The notes under the pieces were generated by a model that saw only the letters and a list, made by a program, of their open reading frames with translations, searched no databases and was not told the DNA's origin. A stretch of DNA of 20,837 bases, from NCBI GenBank assembly GCA_020723935.1, contig DYHY01000005.1, positions 3,223 to 24,059 on the forward strand, in the 5' to 3' direction. A program made the position numbers and the translations under genes. Each line of letters begins with the position of its first letter. The stretch's first letter is position 1. Origin of the DNA: Candidatus Micrarchaeum sp. (GTDB lineage Archaea; SpSt-1190; DYHY01). This document shows, piece after piece, positions 214 through 12,386 of this stretch.

Positions 214-2418
214 TCAGCGGTTCCTTCTAAGGAGGTTCTCGGCAGTCTTCTCCCCGACGATCTCGGCGAGCCTGCGCTTCTCCGAAGTGAGGACTGCTTC
301 CCTGTTCCTGAGGCCCGCCGACCAGAGGCGCCGCGCCTTCACCCGGCCTATCCCCGGCAGGGCGATGATTGCGAGGAGCTCCTCCTTCACGCCGTGCTCC
401 AGGCGCATCCTTATTTTGGAGAGCTCCGAAGCGCGCCCCCGCATCCCGGAGAGTTTCGCAAGCTCCGATGCCGAGTAGGCGACCCAGTCGGCGTTCAGGA
501 GCTTGGTCCTGAGGTCGCCGGGCGCGATCCCATAGTCCTCCATTATCTCCCTGTCGGGCTTCTCGTTCATCCAGGCCTCGAGGGCGCAGGAAAGCTTCAC
601 CGCGCGAAGGAAGACGTCCACAGCCTCAAGGTCCCAGGGCTCGGGGGGCTTTGTCAGGAACGCCTCCCTTCCCGCGCGCAGCCACAGGCCGTCCTTCTCG
701 CACGCGCGCACGGACATCCCCAGCCTCATCTCGAAGGTGCCTGAAACCATCGCGAGGTATCCGAACGTACCCACTGCCTTCCCCTCGCCCGCCATGGCGT
801 CCAGCATCGTCCTCGCGCTCATCGGGTCCAGATAGAGCTCCGCGACCCTCTGCCCTATCTTCGTGAGGATGAGGTCGCCGTCGGCGCCGAGACTCCCCAT
901 CTCGGCAAAGCCCCCCTTGGTTTCCCCCCGCAGCCCCCCTTCCACGAACCCCCATTCCGAGAGCTCGCGCAGGACCTCAAGGATTGTCGAGCGTATTGCG
1001 GAGATGTCCCCGTACTGGTGGGCATAGAACGTCGAGGAGAAAAAGTCCATCAGGGCGCCCCTCGTCGGAGCGAAGCCGGAGGCGATCGCGCCCAGCGCCT
1101 CCCTGCGAAGTATCGGCTGGGCGCCGAGGCGCGAATAGATGTCCTCGGACCTGCCGTTCACATATTTCGCGAAGAGGAGCTCGGCTTCCGCCTCGCTCTT
1201 GGACACCATCACGCTCTCACCGAGGGTGTCGTACGTTGGCCTCCCGGCGCGCCCGACGGCCTGCTTGTAGAGGGAGACCGGCCAGTCGCGCGGGCCGTCC
1301 TCGCCCCAGCCGACGAGGCCGCGGATTATTATCATCCTCGCCGGGAGGTTCATCCCCGCCACGAGGGTGACGGTCGCCCCGATGAACTTCACGAAGCCCT
1401 CTCTGAAAGCCTTCTCGACGAGGACCTTCTGCGAATGGACGAGGCCCGCGTGGTGGAAGGCCGTCCCGGACCGCAGGCATGCGGAGAGCTTCTCGCACTG
1501 GGCGGTAGGCGACGGCAGCGCCTCGAGGGCCTGCTCGGCAAGGCCGGAAAGGACCACCTTCTCCTCGGGCTTGAGATGGCGCGCGACCACTTCGGCCATC
1601 GTCTCCGCACTCTTCTCCGCGCTCCTCCTTGTGTTGAGGAACATTATGCTCTGGTGGCCGCCCTTAAGGCAGTCGAGGACGAGGCCCTCCTCACCCTCCC
1701 TGGGCACCGCGCGGTTCTTCCCGTCGGAGAACTCTATCTCGTCGCCGACAAGGACCCCCTCCCTCAAGGGGATGGGGCGGAAGTCGCTCTTGACGAGCCT
1801 AGCGCCCAGCCACTTGGCCATCTCCTCCGCGTTCCCGACCGTCGCGGAGAGGGCGAGGACCTGCGCCTTGGGCGCAGTCTTCCTGAACTTGACTATAACG
1901 GATTCGAGGGTCGGCCCCCTGTCGCTCCCCAGCTCGTGTATCTCGTCCACGACGAGGAGGCCTGTCCTCGCGACCCAGTCGACCCGGTGCCTCATGAGCG
2001 CGTCGAGCTTCTCCGTCGTCAGGAAGATCACGTCGTACTGGCCGAGGCGCTCGTCGGACTCGTCCAGGCCGCCTATCGAGAGCGCCGAGCGCACGGCCGG
2101 CTCGTATTTCCCGAAATCCTCGTGCTTCTCCCCCGCCAGGGCCCGCAGGGGCGTTATGTAGACGACCTTCTTCTTGGAAAGGACAGCCCTTATCGCCGCA
2201 AGCTCCGCTATGAGCGTCTTCCCGCTCCCCGTCCCGCTGCAGAGGAGGACGTTCTTCCCGTCGAGGACCCCTGCATTGAGCGCCTCGTCCTGCGGGGGAT
2301 AGAGCCGCGCCAGGAGATCCCCCAGGAACGGCTCTGCGAACCGCCGGACCCCCTCAGGAATCCTGGCTAGGCCCCCGCCGCTTGCGCCGGGGGCTGGTTT
2401 CCTTTGTGCTGCGGGCAT
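214..2418 (-). CDS. hel308: Hel308-type superfamily 2 DNA helicase
   Basis: This 734-residue protein is predicted to be an ATP-dependent 3'-5' DNA helicase acting at stalled replication forks, as described for archaeal Hel308 (HelQ-like, Ski2 group). Visible motifs in order: Q-motif region YPPQDEA (40-46), Walker A SGTGSGKT (61-68), motif Ia TPLRALA (89-95), motif II DEIH (158-161), motif III SAT (191-193), then motif V-like GMNLPAR and motif VI QAVGRAGRP in the second RecA domain. A winged-helix/ratchet region follows. The C-terminus carries a helix-hairpin-helix, ALPGIGRVKARRL, from about residue 686. Length is normal for Hel308. The first 20 residues are Pro/Gly/Ala-rich and poorly conserved in character. 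The ATG at 2418 is chosen because a TATA box lies 29.5 nt upstream. A more generic Ski2-like helicase is the alternative, but the C-terminal HhH favours Hel308. Confidence 0.93.
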   Translation of the reverse strand: MPAAQRKPAPGASGGGLARIPEGVRRFAEPFLGDLLARLYPPQDEALNAGVLDGKNVLLCSGTGSGKTLIAELAAIRAVLSKKKVVYITPLRALAGEKHEDFGKYEPAVRSALSIGGLDESDERLGQYDVIFLTTEKLDALMRHRVDWVARTGLLVVDEIHELGSDRGPTLESVIVKFRKTAPKAQVLALSATVGNAEEMAKWLGARLVKSDFRPIPLREGVLVGDEIEFSDGKNRAVPREGEEGLVLDCLKGGHQSIMFLNTRRSAEKSAETMAEVVARHLKPEEKVVLSGLAEQALEALPSPTAQCEKLSACLRSGTAFHHAGLVHSQKVLVEKAFREGFVKFIGATVTLVAGMNLPARMIIIRGLVGWGEDGPRDWPVSLYKQAVGRAGRPTYDTLGESVMVSKSEAEAELLFAKYVNGRSEDIYSRLGAQPILRREALGAIASGFAPTRGALMDFFSSTFYAHQYGDISAIRSTILEVLRELSEWGFVEGGLRGETKGGFAEMGSLGADGDLILTKIGQRVAELYLDPMSARTMLDAMAGEGKAVGTFGYLAMVSGTFEMRLGMSVRACEKDGLWLRAGREAFLTKPPEPWDLEAVDVFLRAVKLSCALEAWMNEKPDREIMEDYGIAPGDLRTKLLNADWVAYSASELAKLSGMRGRASELSKIRMRLEHGVKEELLAIIALPGIGRVKARRLWSAGLRNREAVLTSEKRRLAEIVGEKTAENLLRRNR

Positions 2419-2478: not shown

Positions 2479-2506
2479 TTTCTCCCGGCCCTTTCTCAGG
2501 GAGAAA
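2479..2506. repeat. Inverted repeat spanning the stop codon of the caspase-like gene
   Basis: TTTCTCCC (2479-2486) and GGGAGAAA (2499-2506) form a perfect 8-bp stem with a 12-nt loop. The TGA at 2498-2496 lies inside the loop. In mRNA from the minus strand this would fold a hairpin across the end of the coding region. No T-run follows, so a classical terminator is not supported. Confidence 0.35.
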
Positions 2507-3401
2507 CGGGCGCCGGCGCAGGGGAATAGCTTCCCACGAGGAGGGGCTGGACGAGGACCTCGTTTCCGGGCGCGACCTCGCTCACGGCGCCGTCCGTGCC
2601 CATCCTGTACGTCCGCACTTCCAGGTCCATCCCGCCGTCGCCGGGAAGGCCTTGGAACACGTAGCCGGAGAACGCCCCTATCCCGAACGGACCACCTTCC
2701 GCAGGGGGCGAGTAGGACTGCTGGGACGCGGCGTTGGCCTCCCCCCACAAGGGATCAACGAGGCCGCCTCCGTTGAGCGCCATCGCGAGGCGCGCGAGGG
2801 GCATGTCGGGGAGGCTCACGCGCGGGAAGGCCTGCGTCGAATGGACGCTGGAGACCTCGACGTATATCTCGGGCCGCCCCTCCAGGGGAACCACATATTC
2901 GGAATAGGCCGCCTGCATTGCGGAGAGGAACTTGTCGGCTATTGGCTTCCCCCCGCACTGGTTGAAGCTGAAGACGAGGCGCCTGTTCCCGGCCCCGTCG
3001 GAAACGCCCTTCGCGACGTAGCTTGCGAGGGTCTCGAACGTCACGCCCGTCTCCGAGCCGTCCGCGCCCGGCGCGAGGAGGAACCCGTGGCCGTCGCCGT
3101 GCGTGTTCATCGTGACGTAAGCGACGTTGTTGTCCCTGACGACCTGGTAGATTGCGCTGAGCGCCTCGTCCCGGCTTATCCCGGAGAACGCCTGCGCGGG
3201 GTTGGCTGCGTTCCACCGCCTCGCGAGGTCCGCGAACTGCCCGAGGCCCGAATAGTTCCCTCCGGAGCCGGAAACCAGGTATTGCTCGAGGGCGTTGTTG
3301 ACCTGGACGTCCGTCCCGGTGGGGTCGGTGAGCGCGAGGACCGTTATCTCGGCGTCCGGGAAGTTGTTGAGCTTCGCGGAGAGTATGCCCATCCCCTCCA
3401 C
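2496..3401 (-). CDS. Predicted caspase-like (clan CD) cysteine peptidase; 5' end disrupted or mis-sequenced
   Basis: From the GTG at 3401 the frame gives 301 residues. A hydrophobic strand ending in His-Gly (VTMNTHG, H101) and a second ending in NQCGG (FSFNQCGG, C149) match the catalytic His-Gly and Cys-Gly pattern of clan CD peptidases (caspases, legumain, gingipain), and the 48-residue His-Cys spacing is normal for that clan. Function is inferred from motifs only. The frame stays open and protein-like upstream to 3539 (46 codons without a start codon), then meets the TGA of the upstream gene at 3542-3540. Removing one base from the G6 run at 3535-3530 would join this frame to a GTG at 3543 that overlaps that TGA. 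So the true start is probably 3543, with a sequencing error or real frameshift between. No signal peptide or membrane helix is seen, which suggests a cytosolic protein. The tail is Pro-rich. Confidence 0.6.
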   Translation of the reverse strand: MEGMGILSAKLNNFPDAEITVLALTDPTGTDVQVNNALEQYLVSGSGGNYSGLGQFADLARRWNAANPAQAFSGISRDEALSAIYQVVRDNNVAYVTMNTHGDGHGFLLAPGADGSETGVTFETLASYVAKGVSDGAGNRRLVFSFNQCGGKPIADKFLSAMQAAYSEYVVPLEGRPEIYVEVSSVHSTQAFPRVSLPDMPLARLAMALNGGGLVDPLWGEANAASQQSYSPPAEGGPFGIGAFSGYVFQGLPGDGGMDLEVRTYRMGTDGAVSEVAPGNEVLVQPLLVGSYSPAPAPVSP

Positions 3402-3529
3402 CAGGCGCGGGGAGGGTATCCTCGCGCCGCTGGCGTAGATGAACGGCCTGCCGTTGACAAGGAGTGTCTCGCTCTCGATCCCGGCCTGGCCGAGGGCAGC
3501 GGATACGTAATCCGATGCGAGCTGCGCCT

Positions 3530-3535
3530 CCCCCC
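3530..3535 (-). repeat. G6 homopolymer at the apparent frameshift
   Basis: On the minus strand a CCC is followed by six G, 5 codons into the presumed start region of the caspase-like gene. One base fewer would restore a continuous frame from the GTG at 3543. This could be an assembly error, a real mutation or a slippage site. Confidence 0.4.
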
Positions 3536-3539
3536 GGGC

Positions 3540-4169
3540 TCACGCGGTGCAGGAGGCGTCCCTCACGGCAAGGTCGCATGACTTGGTCGCCGTGAGGACG
3601 TAGCCGCGCTGGACGCAGTAGTAGGCGTATATCCTGCTGATGGCGGTCTCGATCGTCGCGTTAGTCCTGTTCACGACCGTCCTGTTGGCTATCACGATGT
3701 CCCCGCTCCTCTTCATGAGGCTCTTCGTGAACGACGCGAAGGCATTCTCGCCCAGGACCTGGGTGTTGTTCACCTCGAAATAGCATCCGCGCCCGGCGTC
3801 GACGAAGTTGCTCCCCGCGGCCCTGTTCCCAGTCGTGTTGTAATCGATCTTGAGGTAGAACTGCGTCTTGCCCGAATCCCTGTTCCTCACCCAGTATTCC
3901 CACGTCTCCAGGTGCGTCTGCGCCTTCTGCGGCCCCGCCGGGACCGGCGCCTTGACGAGGAGCACGACCGCCGCGACCGCGACGGCGGAGAGGAGGAGGC
4001 CTATCAGGATGACCGCCCAGATGGAGATGTCCCCGCCCCTCTTCTCCCCTTCCTCCGGGGGGCCGGCCGCCGCCGGAGGGGCCTGGGGTTCGCCGGCAGG
4101 CGGCGCTGCCGCCGCAGCAATCGCGGGGATCGGGGCTCCTATCTGCGCGTCCTGGGGAGGATATGCCAT
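3540..4169 (-). CDS. Single-span membrane protein with Ala/Pro-rich cytoplasmic tail and glycosylatable outer domain
   Basis: The family is not recognised. The 209-residue product starts with about 48 residues rich in Ala and Pro. One strong transmembrane helix follows (about residues 51-72, WAVILIGLLLSAVAVAAVVL), then an outer domain of about 135 residues. That domain has several N-glycosylation sequons (NTT, NNT, NRT twice, NAT) and four cysteines that could form two disulfides. Topology is inferred as N-in, C-out. The ATG at 4169 is chosen over upstream TTG options because an AAGGAG Shine-Dalgarno element sits 9 nt before it, inside the end of the preceding gene. The stop (3542-3540) overlaps a GTG that may start the caspase-like gene. 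The downstream frame is the same as this one, so a readthrough fusion cannot be fully excluded. Confidence 0.75.
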   Translation of the reverse strand: MAYPPQDAQIGAPIPAIAAAAAPPAGEPQAPPAAAGPPEEGEKRGGDISIWAVILIGLLLSAVAVAAVVLLVKAPVPAGPQKAQTHLETWEYWVRNRDSGKTQFYLKIDYNTTGNRAAGSNFVDAGRGCYFEVNNTQVLGENAFASFTKSLMKRSGDIVIANRTVVNRTNATIETAISRIYAYYCVQRGYVLTATKSCDLAVRDASCTA

Positions 4170-4173
4170 CGCC

Positions 4174-5001
4174 CTATTGCTCCTTGCCCTCCCCGTCGTT
4201 GTCGTCGTCGGAAGAAGAAGCAGCAGCAACAACAACAACGCCCGCTATCTGGCTCTTGCCGGGCGGAAGGATTTTGTCCACTTCGTCGTCCCTTCCGGCG
4301 AAGCCCAGGCGCTCCTTTATTTCCTTTATCGCCTGCTTCCTCTCAGCGGCGCCGGGGATGAGCCTGATGGATCCGGCTGGCGCCGCGGAGGGCGGCGCGC
4401 AGGCCACCTTGCCGTCCGGGGAGACGAACACGGCCATCTCCAGGATCGTGTTCTTGAAATAGTTCTTCCTCCCCAGTATCATGAAGGCTCCCTTGGGGAC
4501 GAACTCGCCCGGCGGGGCGCGCTTGGTCACCTGGTCGGGGGAGATGTGGTAGACGTCGACCGATGCGAGGCGCGCCTGCCACGCCCGCGAATAGGATGCG
4601 CAGAAGGTCGCCGCCTCGGAAAGGGTCCTCTCCCCGCACGCGCCCCTTATCACGACGAACGGGCTTCCCGACGGGTCGGCGTGGAAGATCGTGTCGCCCT
4701 TCCCGGCGTGCTTCTTCACCGCGGCCTCGTTGGTCTCCGCGTCCTTCCCCGCTATCACGAGATTCCCCTCGGAGGAGACGAAGTTCCTGAACCTGTCGAA
4801 CCATTCGCGCCTGGCGTCTTTCCCCCTTTTCGGGGAAGCGGCAGTCCCCTTTCCACCCTCATCGGAGAGCGTCCTGAGGAAGCCCGCGGCTGCGCGCGCC
4901 TTCTCGCGCGCCCTCTTGGCCCTGTCGAAATACTCGGCAGCGTTCTGCCTGGCCCCCTTCTTCACGTCCACCTCCACTTCCTGCTCTCGTTCGACTCCCA
5001 T
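4174..5001 (-). CDS. Stand-alone NFACT-R domain protein (RqcH/NEMF C-terminal half)
   Basis: This 275-residue protein matches the C-terminal half of RqcH/Tae2/NEMF ribosome-quality-control factors. Residues about 15-40 (NAAEYFDRAKRAREKAR) resemble the end of the coiled-coil region. Residues about 68-190 form the NFACT-R domain, with hallmarks FVSSEGNLVIAGKDAETNE, KGDTIFHAD (102-109), SEAATFCASYSRAW (128-141) and PKGAFMILGRKNY (169-181). Full RqcH proteins carry NFACT-N and HhH domains before this and are more than twice as long. Here the ATG at 5001 begins just before the coiled-coil end, so the parts that contact tRNA in RqcH are missing. Binding to RNA or ribosomes is inferred. The tail is low-complexity (runs of V, A, S, D) and acidic. 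It heads an operon with the membrane protein, 4 nt downstream. Confidence 0.85.
   Translation of the reverse strand: MGVEREQEVEVDVKKGARQNAAEYFDRAKRAREKARAAAGFLRTLSDEGGKGTAASPKRGKDARREWFDRFRNFVSSEGNLVIAGKDAETNEAAVKKHAGKGDTIFHADPSGSPFVVIRGACGERTLSEAATFCASYSRAWQARLASVDVYHISPDQVTKRAPPGEFVPKGAFMILGRKNYFKNTILEMAVFVSPDGKVACAPPSAAPAGSIRLIPGAAERKQAIKEIKERLGFAGRDDEVDKILPPGKSQIAGVVVVAAASSSDDDNDGEGKEQ
4195..4239 (-). repeat. Stepped trinucleotide repeat coding for V4-A3-S3-D3
   Basis: Within the 3' end of the NFACT-R gene the codons run GTT x4, GCT x3, TCT x2 plus TCC, GAC x3, AAC, GAC. It looks like a degenerate trinucleotide microsatellite and codes for a low-complexity, acidic C-terminal tail. Confidence 0.6.
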
Positions 5002-5011
5002 TCTTACCGCC

Positions 5012-5023
5012 CGCGGGCCCGCG
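5012..5023. repeat. 12-bp perfect palindrome between NFACT-R gene and truA
   Basis: CGCGGGCCCGCG is a perfect palindrome 11 nt upstream of the NFACT-R start codon, in the 75-bp divergent region. It could be a regulator-binding site, but in GC-rich DNA a chance palindrome of this size is plausible. Confidence 0.25.
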
Positions 5024-5043
5024 CTAATGACCGCAACAGAAAG

Positions 5044-5055
5044 CCAAATAAAAAG
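5044..5055 (+). promoter_or_regulatory. TATA box of truA
   Basis: CCAAATAAAAAG is the only AT-rich block in the divergent region. The centre of CAAATAAA (5048.5) is 28.5 nt upstream of the truA ATG at 5077, so the transcript should be leaderless or nearly so. Confidence 0.6.
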
Positions 5056-5076
5056 GAATCGTGCGGGGGAAGCGGG

Positions 5077-5886
5077 ATGGCGCAGGAAAAGGGGGCGGCT
5101 ATGGGGAGGTTCGCCCTCCTACTCGCGTACGACGGAGGAGGCTTCTTCGGCAGCCAGGTCCAGAACGGCACGAGAGTGCGCACCGTCGCAGGGGAGCTCT
5201 CGCGCGTCCTCGCAGGGTCGGGCTTCGCGGCGCCATCCGCGAAGGTGGCGCTCGCTTCGAGGACCGACCGCGGGGTTTCCGCGGCCATGAACGTCGCGGC
5301 TTACGACGGCGCAAGGCCGATCCTAGGGAAGATAAACCACCACCTCCCGCCCGACATGTGCGCATGGGGCTGGGCGCGCGTACCTGCCTCCTTCAGCCCG
5401 CGCCATGCCGACTGGAAGAGGTATTCATACTTCCTCCCGGACGAGGGGCAGGACGAGGACCTCCTGAGGCGCGCCCTCTCGTATTTCACGGGAGCGCACG
5501 ACTTCGCCAACTTCGCCTACCATGAGAAGGCGACCGTCTCCTCCCTGGATGAGGCGTCCCTCTCGCGCGTCCCCGGCTTCTTCGTAGCCACCTTCAGGGC
5601 CGGCAAGTTCCTGCGCCTGCAGATAAGGAGGATGGTCGCCGCGGCCGATTCGGCGTCCCGCGGGAGGATGAACCTCCCGCTCCTAGATGCCCTGATCTCG
5701 GGGAAGGTGAGGAAAGGGGCGGAGACCGCCCCCGCCGAAGGCCTGGTCCTGGAGGAGGTCGATTACGGCGGGAGGGTGACGTTCGAGGAGAAGAAGCCTG
5801 TCGCCGTTTCCGAGCGCTTCTCGATGCAGGCCCGTCTGGCGAGCCAGAGGGGCGCGGCACTGAAGCGCATCGCCGGCTCGGATTAG
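5077..5886 (+). CDS. truA: tRNA pseudouridine synthase TruA
   Basis: The 269-residue protein is predicted to convert uridine to pseudouridine in the anticodon stem-loop of tRNAs (positions 38-40 in characterised TruA). Visible hallmarks are the N-terminal LLLAYDGGGFFGSQVQ (15-29), the catalytic-Asp motif SRTDRGVSA (61-69, D64), the KRYSYFLP strand and the C-terminal LRLQIRRMV motif. Length is typical. ATG 5077 is preferred over the in-frame ATG at 5101 because it lies 28.5 nt from the TATA box and follows a purine-rich stretch. The frame is open far upstream, across the antisense of the NFACT-R gene; that is an artefact of GC-rich sequence. Its TAG overlaps the convergent acetyltransferase stop by 3 nt within the tetranucleotide TTAG. 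Confidence 0.92.
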   Translation: MAQEKGAAMGRFALLLAYDGGGFFGSQVQNGTRVRTVAGELSRVLAGSGFAAPSAKVALASRTDRGVSAAMNVAAYDGARPILGKINHHLPPDMCAWGWARVPASFSPRHADWKRYSYFLPDEGQDEDLLRRALSYFTGAHDFANFAYHEKATVSSLDEASLSRVPGFFVATFRAGKFLRLQIRRMVAAADSASRGRMNLPLLDALISGKVRKGAETAPAEGLVLEEVDYGGRVTFEEKKPVAVSERFSMQARLASQRGAALKRIAGSD

Positions 5887-8745: not shown

Positions 8746-11403
8746 CTATTGGCCGCCGGGGGGCATTCTGTAGTACTGCTGCTGTTGCTGCCCTTGCTGC
8801 CCGCCCTGGCCGAGATATTGCTGCTGCGGCTGCTGGGGCGGAGCCGGATACTGCCCGGCGAACTGCTGGGGGCCCTTGCGCACGGCGGCGGGCTTCTTCC
8901 TGATCTTCGCGTAGTAGTAGAAGCCGCCCACGACCGCGACTATCCCCGCGATTATCAGGAGCGTAGCGCCGGACTGCGGGGTGACGCAGTCCTTCTCGGC
9001 CTTGTCGTATTCCGCCCGCGCCCTGTCGTATGCCGTCTTCGCGTTCGCCGCGTCGTTCCTGTCCACATAATCCTTCAGGGCGGTCAGGAGCGCGTCCAGG
9101 TTCTTGAGGCTGTAGTACTTGCAGTTCTGCCCGAGCGCGTCGGCCGAGGACCGCAGGGCGTCGCTCTGCCGCTTGAGGCGCAGTATCGCCGAGGGCACGG
9201 CGGCCGCCGCGAACTGCGAGGAGCTCGCCTCGCCCGTCGACTGGGATTTCGCGGTCAGGATCACTGGTATGTGCGCGTTCTCCGCCACATCCATGCCAAG
9301 AGTGACGGTCACGTTCACCGCTGCGCTCTCTCCGGGGCTGAGCGAGACCGTCTGGGGCGATGCCGTCCCAGGGCCGCTCACGCTGAGTTGGAACGTGTCG
9401 GCCGAGCTCCCTCCGTTCATGATCTTGAACGCTACGTACTTGGAACTCCCGATGCCAACGTTCACGCTCGCGGGGGGCGCGACCGGAAATGTTATCCTGC
9501 TAGCGACGACCGTGATCGTCAGGGCGGCCGAAGCGGACACCTGCTCGCCCGACGCGTCGGAGGTGGTCCCGACGATCTCCATCACCTGCCCCGCCTGCGC
9601 GGCTATCGTGCCGGGATCGCTCACCGAGACCTGGGCCTCCGCGCTCTGCCTGCCCGGGACCCTTATCGTGGATCCCGCCGGGAAGGAGACCCTGAACGGG
9701 GTCTGCGAGACCTTGAGGGAGACCGTCGTCTCGGCGAGGAGGTTGTTTGTTATCAGCACGGTCGCGAAAGCCGAGCCGCCCTTGGGGACTGTGAAGTTCT
9801 CCGGGCTCGCCTTCATCGAGAGGGCCTCCCCCTTCCCCTCGACGTAGACGGTCGTCTTCGGGGACTCGAAGATGCCGAGGCTCACCGTGTCGACGCCGAA
9901 GACCCCCAGATTTATCCTGTCGCCCGACCCGCTGCAGTTGGAAAGGCCCGCCGTCTCGGCGGTCGAGATCCTCGCGATGATCTGCGTCGCCATCGAGGCG
10001 GTCTTGTTCTTGGAGGCTATGAACGCCGCCACGTCCCTCGAGAACGCCGTCGCGTTCCCGTAGGTCGAGAGCGCGCTGGAGAGGCCGTCTGCGATCGCGG
10101 GATTGCTCTCTATCGCCCGCAGGATGGTCATGAGCTTGCGGTTGTAGGCGGTCCCGCCGCACCCGATCTTCTCGATGAATATCGTCCTGCTGGCGGTCGC
10201 CGAGCCGACGGAGGGCATCTTCCCGGTCGGGCTCTCGGAGAGCTTCGCCGGCGGGTCGGAGAAGACGGACCAGTACACCGTCCCGGAGGGGTTGGTGCTG
10301 GAGGTGCGGAGGACGACTGAGACGTCGAAGGGCGAGGACACCGCGACGCGCTCGGCCGAGGAGTATATCTCGGAGGCCACCGACACGAACCCGGACGGCT
10401 GGAAGGATATCGGCGCGGTCTTGGTGACGTTCGTCGTCTCCGAGGAGGCGCGCACGTAGCCGCTCGTCGCGTTCGCTCCGACGGGGGCGAGGACGTCCAC
10501 GGTGATGCGGATGCGCTCCCCGGGCGCGAGGGGCTTGGTCGTCACCTTGCTGTATTCCCAGTCCAGGGGGAGGCCGGAGAAGTCGACGGAGAAGGGCTCA
10601 GTGGTCGTCCCGAGGTTCGTGATGTTGACCGCGACGTGCTCGTTCACCCCGCTCCTCACGGAGACTGTGGAGCTCTCGGGGACGACGGAGAAGTCGGTGG
10701 GCTTCAGGTTCTCCGGCGAGAACATGGCGTAGACCATCCCGGTCGCGTGGTCCGCGACGACGACGGTGAACGAGAGGGAGTCGCTGGCTGAGTAGGACCT
10801 GTTGGAGTATATCTGGAAGAACCCGCCGAAGCCTTGGGTCTTCACCTCCTCCACCGACGGGCCGTTGGTCACGAAGAAGAGTATGTCGTATGTCACGGAC
10901 CCGTCAGTCTTGCACCCGTTCCCGGCGATCGCCCCCTGCAGGAGGACGCGCGATGTCGCCTCGTCGAGCTTAGAGGATATCGCGCTCTTCTGGAGGGCGC
11001 ACGGGCAGGTGGACGCGTTCGTCAACGCGTTCGTCCTCCCGGCTATCCCGTTCATCGAAACCTGCGTGCCGAAGCCCCCCTTCGTCGTCCCCGGGACGGA
11101 GAAGTAGAGCGCGCTCCCGTCCTGGAAGAACGTCGTGTAGTTCGCCCCCTGGCTGGAGACGAAGGTCGCCTGCTTGTCGACGAAGTAGCCGGCGGGCGCC
11201 GCGTAATTGACGCGCACGGCCGCGGAGAGGTTCGCGGGCGCGCAAGGCAGGTGGAGGCTGCTGTGGAAGTCGAAGGGGCACGCGATGGGCGTCCCGGAGA
11301 GGGTACAGTCTATTGCATGGCCCGCGGAGGGGAGAATCAGGAGCTGCGCAAGGGCAGCGATCGCGACGATGAGGATGGCGCGCAGCAGTCTCCCTCGCCC
11401 CAT
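8746..11403 (-). CDS. Large secreted, membrane-anchored surface protein with Ig-like repeats and Gln-rich tail
   Basis: The 885-residue product has a clear signal peptide (hydrophobic 7-24, probable cleavage after HA at 30). The long extracellular part is rich in Ser, Thr, Val and Asn-x-Ser/Thr sequons. It contains several beta-sandwich-like segments with the 'VPKGGSAFATVLITNN' and 'LSPGESAAVNVTVTL' pattern of NEW3/CARDB-type domains. A helical, two-Cys segment (about 738-805) precedes a single transmembrane helix (about 813-832, LLIIAGIVAVVGGFYYYA). A basic stop-transfer and a 50-residue Gln/Pro/Gly/Tyr-rich cytoplasmic tail follow. A cell-surface or envelope role is inferred; the exact family is not known. 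ATG 11403 shares its A with the rfcS stop (TGATG), which indicates translational coupling. The open frame upstream of 11403 is only the rfcS shadow. Confidence 0.85.
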   Translation of the reverse strand: MGRGRLLRAILIVAIAALAQLLILPSAGHAIDCTLSGTPIACPFDFHSSLHLPCAPANLSAAVRVNYAAPAGYFVDKQATFVSSQGANYTTFFQDGSALYFSVPGTTKGGFGTQVSMNGIAGRTNALTNASTCPCALQKSAISSKLDEATSRVLLQGAIAGNGCKTDGSVTYDILFFVTNGPSVEEVKTQGFGGFFQIYSNRSYSASDSLSFTVVVADHATGMVYAMFSPENLKPTDFSVVPESSTVSVRSGVNEHVAVNITNLGTTTEPFSVDFSGLPLDWEYSKVTTKPLAPGERIRITVDVLAPVGANATSGYVRASSETTNVTKTAPISFQPSGFVSVASEIYSSAERVAVSSPFDVSVVLRTSSTNPSGTVYWSVFSDPPAKLSESPTGKMPSVGSATASRTIFIEKIGCGGTAYNRKLMTILRAIESNPAIADGLSSALSTYGNATAFSRDVAAFIASKNKTASMATQIIARISTAETAGLSNCSGSGDRINLGVFGVDTVSLGIFESPKTTVYVEGKGEALSMKASPENFTVPKGGSAFATVLITNNLLAETTVSLKVSQTPFRVSFPAGSTIRVPGRQSAEAQVSVSDPGTIAAQAGQVMEIVGTTSDASGEQVSASAALTITVVASRITFPVAPPASVNVGIGSSKYVAFKIMNGGSSADTFQLSVSGPGTASPQTVSLSPGESAAVNVTVTLGMDVAENAHIPVILTAKSQSTGEASSSQFAAAAVPSAILRLKRQSDALRSSADALGQNCKYYSLKNLDALLTALKDYVDRNDAANAKTAYDRARAEYDKAEKDCVTPQSGATLLIIAGIVAVVGGFYYYAKIRKKPAAVRKGPQQFAGQYPAPPQQPQQQYLGQGGQQGQQQQQYYRMPPGGQ

Positions 11404-12386
11404 CAGGTCCCGCGCTCCGTTCTCTGCGCCGACTTGGGCGAGAGGGCGCAAGCCTCCGCGAGGAACGCGTCCAGCTGTATCCGCTCGCTCGCCCCCTCCA
11501 TCATCCTGAAAGCGTATTCCGAGAGGGCGCGCACGAGCGCCATCTTGGCTTGGGCGGGGAGCTCGTCGATGGAGAAAATCTCCCTGTGGAAGGCCTTCAC
11601 GACCTCCTCGCCCCCGAGGCCCCCGCTGTTCACCACCTTGATGAGCTTCTCGCGCGCGGCCTGGAAGTCCCCCTCGACCGCGGCGAGGACGAGGATCTCG
11701 CGCGCCTCCTCGGGGAAGAGCGAGCGGGCGACGGAATAGATCTCCTTGCCGCTGACCTTCCTGCCGAAGGCCGCCGCGGTCTGCAGGACGTTCGTGGCCG
11801 CCCGCAGGTCCCCTTCCGAGACCTCTATTATCGCTTCCAGGGCGTCCTTCTCGGTCTTCACGCCCTCCTCCGACACGATTTTCTCCAGGTATCTGCGTAT
11901 CTCCTCGTCCTTGAGGGGCAGGAACCGGAAGGTCGCGCACCTGGACTGTAGCGGGTCTATTATCTTGTTGATGTAGTTGCACGAGAGGATGAACCTGCAC
12001 GTCGAGGCGTACTTCTCCATCGTCCTTCGCAGGGCGTTCTGCGCGTCGCGCGTGAGCGCGTCGCACTCGTCCAGGAATATTATCTTGTGGCTGCCGCCGA
12101 CCGCAAGGGTCCTTGCGAAGTTCTTGATCTTCACCCTCACGACATCTATCCCGCGCTCGTCGGAGGCGTTGGTCTCGAGGAACCTGTCCTGCCAGCCGTC
12201 CTTGAAGAGCTCCCGGGCGATGCAGACCGCCGCGGTCGTCTTCCCGACGCCGGCCGGGCCGGAGAAGAGCATGTGCGGGACGCTTCCGGACTTCACCAGG
12301 GCTTCCAGGCGCTCGACGGTCTGCTTCTGGCCCACCATCTCCCTGAGCTTCTGAGGCCTGTATTTCTCGGTCCAGATGGCTTCCAT
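11403..12386 (-). CDS. rfcS: Replication factor C small subunit
   Basis: The 327-residue AAA+ subunit forms the clamp loader with RfcL. Seen in order: IWTEKYRP (4-11), Walker A GPAGVGKT (43-50), the small-subunit signature NASDERG (73-79), Walker B IIFLDECDA (102-110), sensor 1 SCN (135-137) and the arginine-finger motif SRC (148-150). Three C-terminal collar helices follow. Length is standard and no intein is present. ATG 12386 is chosen over a GTG 14 codons upstream because the family starts at this position and the shared TATA box is 28.5 nt away. The last codon runs into the surface-protein start (TGATG). Confidence 0.96.
   Translation of the reverse strand: MEAIWTEKYRPQKLREMVGQKQTVERLEALVKSGSVPHMLFSGPAGVGKTTAAVCIARELFKDGWQDRFLETNASDERGIDVVRVKIKNFARTLAVGGSHKIIFLDECDALTRDAQNALRRTMEKYASTCRFILSCNYINKIIDPLQSRCATFRFLPLKDEEIRRYLEKIVSEEGVKTEKDALEAIIEVSEGDLRAATNVLQTAAAFGRKVSGKEIYSVARSLFPEEAREILVLAAVEGDFQAAREKLIKVVNSGGLGGEEVVKAFHREIFSIDELPAQAKMALVRALSEYAFRMMEGASERIQLDAFLAEACALSPKSAQRTERGT

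Follow-up and report, generated by a model that had tools for sequence, protein, structure and literature searches.

The locus considered here lies between the gene for an NFACT-R domain protein and the gene for a Hel308-type helicase in Candidatus Micrarchaeum sp. (contig DYHY01000005.1). Two open reading frames, ORF1 and ORF2, are found at this place on the minus strand, and they raise two questions: which kind of protein is specified by ORF2, and where does its gene begin? The window, that is, the whole stretch of DNA that was analysed, comprises 20,837 nt, and all positions refer to it unless another contig is named (Table 1). From the analyses described below, ORF2 is regarded, with a probability of roughly 0.6, as the gene of a clan CD-like cysteine peptidase, an orphan of divergent sequence whose style comes nearest to that of archaeal C13.

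Table 1. Features of the ORF1/ORF2 region and its neighbours
Feature	Position in the window	Strand	Remarks
Hel308-type helicase, downstream neighbour	214..2418	minus	
ORF2, predicted clan CD-like cysteine peptidase domain	2496..3539	minus	347 codons and TGA stop; codon score, GC3, motif
Predicted catalytic Cys codon, in FNQCGG	2955..2957	minus	C195 of ORF2; placed on the C13 catalytic Cys by hhalign
Predicted catalytic His codon, Gly next	3099..3101	minus	H147 of ORF2; placed on the C13 catalytic His by hhalign
Six-G run just after the TGA	3530..3535	minus	read in the sequence
In-frame TGA between ORF1 and ORF2	3540..3542	minus	codon score positive on both sides
ORF1, 209 aa from ATG 4169	3543..4169	minus	same frame as ORF2
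Predicted transmembrane helix of ORF1, about residues 49-72	3954..4025	minus	hydropathy up to 3.1 over 19 residues
NFACT-R domain protein (RqcH C-terminal-like), upstream neighbour	4174..5001	minus	PF05670, E=2.2e-27; NF041120

Identification of a His/Cys motif in ORF2

On the minus strand, the codon score is positive in the ORF2 frame only, and both this score and the GC3 of the frame, 0.87, are like those of the neighbouring genes. In a preliminary description of this DNA, two hydrophobic strands ending in THG and NQCGG had been noted, with 48 residues between His and Cys. Both were found again when the frame was re-read. The His is located within YVTMNTHGDGHGF and the Cys, which is the only one of ORF2, within RLVFSFNQCGG; each of them closes a hydrophobic strand. 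Counted from the GTG at 3401, the two residues are His 101 and Cys 149. In the longer numbering applied here, which is based on the whole frame from 2499 to 3539, they correspond to H147 and C195. The arrangement agrees with a feature of clan CD, a His-Gly ending strand 3 and a Cys ending strand 4, about 40 to 60 residues apart (PMC4357240).

The frequency of such an arrangement was determined by searching for a hydrophobic strand ending in HG, followed after 30 to 70 residues by a hydrophobic strand ending in C. Among the 1165 proteins predicted from the genome, ORF2 was the only one detected, a figure that is somewhat favourable to ORF2, since the thresholds were chosen so that it passes. 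Shuffled proteins yielded the motif at a rate of 0.18 to 0.21%. Applied to established families, the same rule recovered six of 11 archaeal C13 proteins, nine of 20 from C14, four of eight from C11, and one of 17 from C25.

Distribution of ORF1 and ORF2

The start of ORF1 is located only a few bases past the end of the NFACT-R gene. The nearest relative is the sole other genome of the same family; there, the NFACT-R and Hel308 genes adjoin, being separated by 23 bases, and ORF1 and ORF2 have no counterpart at this place. Searches in sets of 61, 10, and 394 archaeal genomes did not reveal homologues of ORF2 beyond chance, and none were detected in the genome contigs, viral contigs, plasmids, and phages searched. 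Four weak matches (L002, L003, L019, L020) were opened and turned out to be chance matches within unrelated genes. Comparisons of ORF2 with Pfam, NCBIfam, PADLOC, and PDB sequences gave no significant match, and searches with ORF1 produced low-complexity or transmembrane matches only. Within the reach of these searches, both ORFs are orphans. The GC3 of ORF2, being like that of the host, argues against a very recent import.

Two further frames of the window deserve mention. A frame of 672 aa on the plus strand (3868-5886) first covers ORF1 and the NFACT-R gene in antisense direction and then reaches a TruA-like protein (tRNA pseudouridine synthase) near 5100. The first 400 residues of this frame are probably non-coding, yet the frame is preferred by a mechanical gene caller. 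On the minus strand, a frame of 1106 aa (8746-12066) overlaps in its first part with the clamp-loader (RFC) gene, which is read in a different frame. By eye, the actual start is probably near 11440, and the protein would have a signal peptide, then domains of surface type and a transmembrane helix at its C terminus.

Probable relationship of ORF2 to clan CD families

Four tests were calibrated on the proteins of the organism itself: the motif described above, hhalign, a motif matrix, and HMMER profiles. By hhalign, ORF2 ranked 2 among 251 own proteins with C13, 4 with C25, 21 with C14, and 142 with C11. The rank with M28 was 188 of 251, so that high hhalign ranks are not a general property of ORF2. 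In the comparison with archaeal C13, ORF2 was the only one of the 251 proteins to have both His and Cys on the catalytic columns, in an alignment that is itself non-significant. The motif matrix, which was trained on C13, C14, and C11, gave ORF2 a score of 0.0, compared to -6.8 to 15.9 for true C25 peptidases. By this cross-family score, ORF2 falls within the range of the true C25 peptidases and among roughly the best 1% of the proteome, but lower than the majority of true C13 and C14 proteins. The hmmsearch profiles all failed on ORF2: matches to C13 legumain (PF01650), C14 caspase (PF00656), C25 gingipain (PF01364), and C11 clostripain (PF03415) were not significant, and the ranks within the own proteome were 45, 64, 77, and 517, respectively. 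Taken together, the four tests support a divergent clan CD relationship as judged from sequence, short of proof.

A structure predicted by AlphaFold without homologues was of low confidence, with a pLDDT of 48 for the whole of ORF2 and 46 for residues 16-264. In the trimmed model, the elements follow each other as strands, helix, strand, helices, strand with H147, hairpin, helix, strand with C195, helix, strand, and helix. The minimal clan CD fold consists of strands in the order 2-1-3-4 and helices 1 to 3, with a Gly beside the catalytic His (PMC4357240). The order of elements predicted for ORF2, in models with a pLDDT of 46 to 48, fits that of the caspase-haemoglobinase fold. When these low-confidence models were compared by VIA-align, phospholipase C barrels came first with Z values of 7 to 7.7, which is below the meaningful level. 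Legumain, raptor, and C80 protease domains were found lower, with Z values of 4 to 6 or as weak Foldseek rows, likewise below significance, and some of these matches span the whole domain. A phospholipase C/D fold (Z 5 to 7.7, below the meaningful level) was rejected, the alignment covering part of the barrel.

The main rival to a clan CD peptidase is another alpha/beta protein, be it a different hydrolase, a binding domain, or a surface domain, in which His-Gly and Cys stand 48 residues apart by chance. A motif rate of about 0.2% in shuffles is not negligible over 1165 proteins, no profile reaches significance, and the top fold matches are unrelated alpha/beta proteins. Against a chance pair, ORF2 is alone in the proteome with the motif and alone among 251 proteins in the C13 register, and the order of strands and helices fits clan CD as well. 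A chance origin is considered somewhat improbable, albeit with real weight. A degenerate M28-type metallo-aminopeptidase, brought up by a match to NCBIfam PRK10199 (E=0.033, residues 7-111) and by E. coli Iap, which ranks ORF2 first in the own proteome (E=0.0086), is largely refuted, considering that ORF2 goes unreported with a profile built from M28 proteins, that 12 other M28 proteins ignore it, that its hhalign rank with M28 is low, and that the His, Asp, and Glu which bind the metal are replaced in the Iap alignment. An OmpA-like domain, to which two weak PDB matches in residues 19-85 pointed, was also discarded; with E. coli OmpA, ORF2 reached only rank 15.

The preliminary description had predicted the protein to be a caspase-like clan CD cysteine peptidase. 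As far as clan CD is concerned, motif, spacing, strand and helix order, and the in-register alignment with C13 speak for the assignment, and the missing significance in all profile searches speaks against it. The term caspase-like is too narrow, since the archaeal C14 profiles do not match and, in style, the legumain-like family C13 comes nearest. Our results place ORF2 outside every family tested.

Gene model

ORF1 begins with a Pro/Ala-rich N terminus, followed by one transmembrane helix and a segment with five N-glycosylation sequons and four Cys. The TGA separating it from ORF2 was compared with others by a scan covering 1.117 of the 1.139 Mb of the genome. No other TGA in the part scanned is flanked by coding sequence both upstream and downstream while lacking a start codon among the following 30 codons. 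Downstream of it, 46 codons (3539-3402) score as coding and are devoid of ATG, GTG, or TTG. The GTG at 3401, from which the protein had been numbered in the preliminary description, is probably not the start, because these codons precede it and the frame passes through the TGA into ORF1. While the ORF and its motif had been recognized correctly, this upstream continuation in the same frame had been missed.

Three gene models fit these data: one gene, two genes with an extra G in the sequence, or a gene in early decay. The first is favoured, since the coding score is continuous across the TGA and no start is available for 46 codons. ORF1 and ORF2 are thus most likely a single gene for an anchored, outward-facing protein, containing a nonsense codon or a sequence error. 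The distribution of sequons is less easily accommodated: their density is 3.7 per 100 aa in the outer part of ORF1 compared to 0.29 in ORF2, which is only background and counts against an outward location of the latter.

Two separate genes would result if the run of six G had one G too many. If the run had five G, a GTG would overlap the TGA in the form GTGA and start ORF2, and this start, MSPGEAQLASDYV, would be in frame. ORF2 would then be cytoplasmic, which its sequon and Cys content resembles and which is compatible with the clan CD reading. On the other hand, such an arrangement requires an assembly error, the frame common to both ORFs would be a coincidence, and other conserved genes of this genome also carry an interrupting codon, in their case a TAG at transition distance from Trp or Gln. 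We consider two genes a doubtful solution. It is unlikely that the interrupted gene is a decaying pseudogene without a working enzyme. The in-frame TGA with no start codon behind it and the absence of the gene in the nearest relative would be expected in this case, but the codon bias and the motif are preserved before and after the TGA, and a further stop or frameshift is not seen.

Readthrough of the TGA was also considered. Selenocysteine was rejected, as no tRNA-Sec above the cut-off was found, and ARAGORN detected neither a clear suppressor tRNA candidate nor a CUA anticodon in the genome. The same program reported a 'tRNA-Stop (tta)' at C1 8093-7985 (L044) with a 32-base intron at position 37, which may be an intron-containing tRNA whose splice site was misplaced.

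The interrupted conserved genes are those for glutamate dehydrogenase, a DipZ-like thioredoxin, and a P-type ATPase, with in-frame TAG codons at C36 46907 and 46517 (L112), C17 95229 (L098), and C34 near 6430 (L077). In homologues of solved structure, Trp is found at an interrupted position in all three genes, and a Gln-like residue at the second ATPase site. These positions point to single-transition nonsense changes in the genome or in the assembly; the TAG codons could be such changes, assembly errors, or translated. A nonsense codon is accordingly not unusual here.

Proposed function and significance

If ORF1 and ORF2 are one gene, the product would most probably be a type II membrane protein, the frame of ORF2 running upstream via the present TGA into ORF1. 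A short cytoplasmic Pro/Ala-rich tail would be followed by the transmembrane helix, the glycosylated segment with its Cys residues, and, outside the cell, the peptidase domain. ORF2 itself would be a cysteine endopeptidase with the caspase-haemoglobinase (clan CD) fold, too divergent to be included in any described family. The catalytic dyad is predicted to consist of H147, which closes strand 3, and C195, which closes strand 4; the thiolate of C195 would attack the peptide bond as the nucleophile, assisted by H147 as general base. Helix 1 together with loops 4 and 5 determines P1 specificity throughout the clan (PMC4357240), and the P1 residue of a substrate would be seated in a pocket formed by these elements. 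An enzyme anchored in this way may cut or mature surface proteins. Quite tentatively, ORF1 and ORF2 could represent a new clan CD family, confined to a single small lineage of archaea: a legumain/caspase-like protease that is anchored in the membrane, faces outward, and processes the surface of the archaeal cell.

In the archaeal genomes searched, clan CD families are present in a minority: C14 in 20 of 374, C13 in 11 of 247, C25 in 30 of 247, and C11 in five of 247. None of the four was matched in the genome harbouring ORF2. If the assignment is true, an extra branch without detectable relatives would mean that family profiles still miss members of clan CD, and a probable surface protease would be added to a small archaeal phylum, represented here by a handful of draft genomes. 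The finding of ORF2 alone says nothing on programmed cell death.

Comparison with known clan CD families

Clostripain-like proteins of C11 (L135-L142) have the clan layout and the spacing in common with ORF2, but are otherwise not similar. For gingipain-like proteins of C25 (L143-L172), the His-Gly strand is brought into register by hhalign, but the Cys is out of alignment, and the long N-terminal subdomain of C25 is not recognised in ORF2. The caspases, metacaspases, and orthocaspases of C14 (L021-L043) show the clan layout, and a local alignment to them is found for strand 2 of ORF2 and the T-rich helix start that follows it (LTDPTGTDVQVNNAL), but the C14 signatures SGHG and D[AS]CHSGG are absent from ORF2.

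Among the C13-like proteins, three from archaeal genomes, L132 (G186), L124 (G205), and L126 (G188), differ from the usual order of the clan. Their Cys motif (FNQCFGGGM, QQCFGGGM) precedes the His motif (SDHG, TDHG), and in L132 and L124 both motifs were read. These proteins look like circularly permuted C13-like proteins.

The closest correspondence is seen with archaeal C13 (L122-L134), in which, as in ORF2, His-Gly follows strand 3 and Cys follows strand 4. In the fetched members with this order, 42 to 59 residues separate His and Cys, compared to 48 in ORF2. The Cys is followed by a CxGG or CxSG pattern in C13 and is part of CGGK in ORF2, and several C13 proteins have a Gln just before the Cys (FDQCHSGG, MEQCYAGK, FNQCFGGG), as found in FNQCGG of ORF2.
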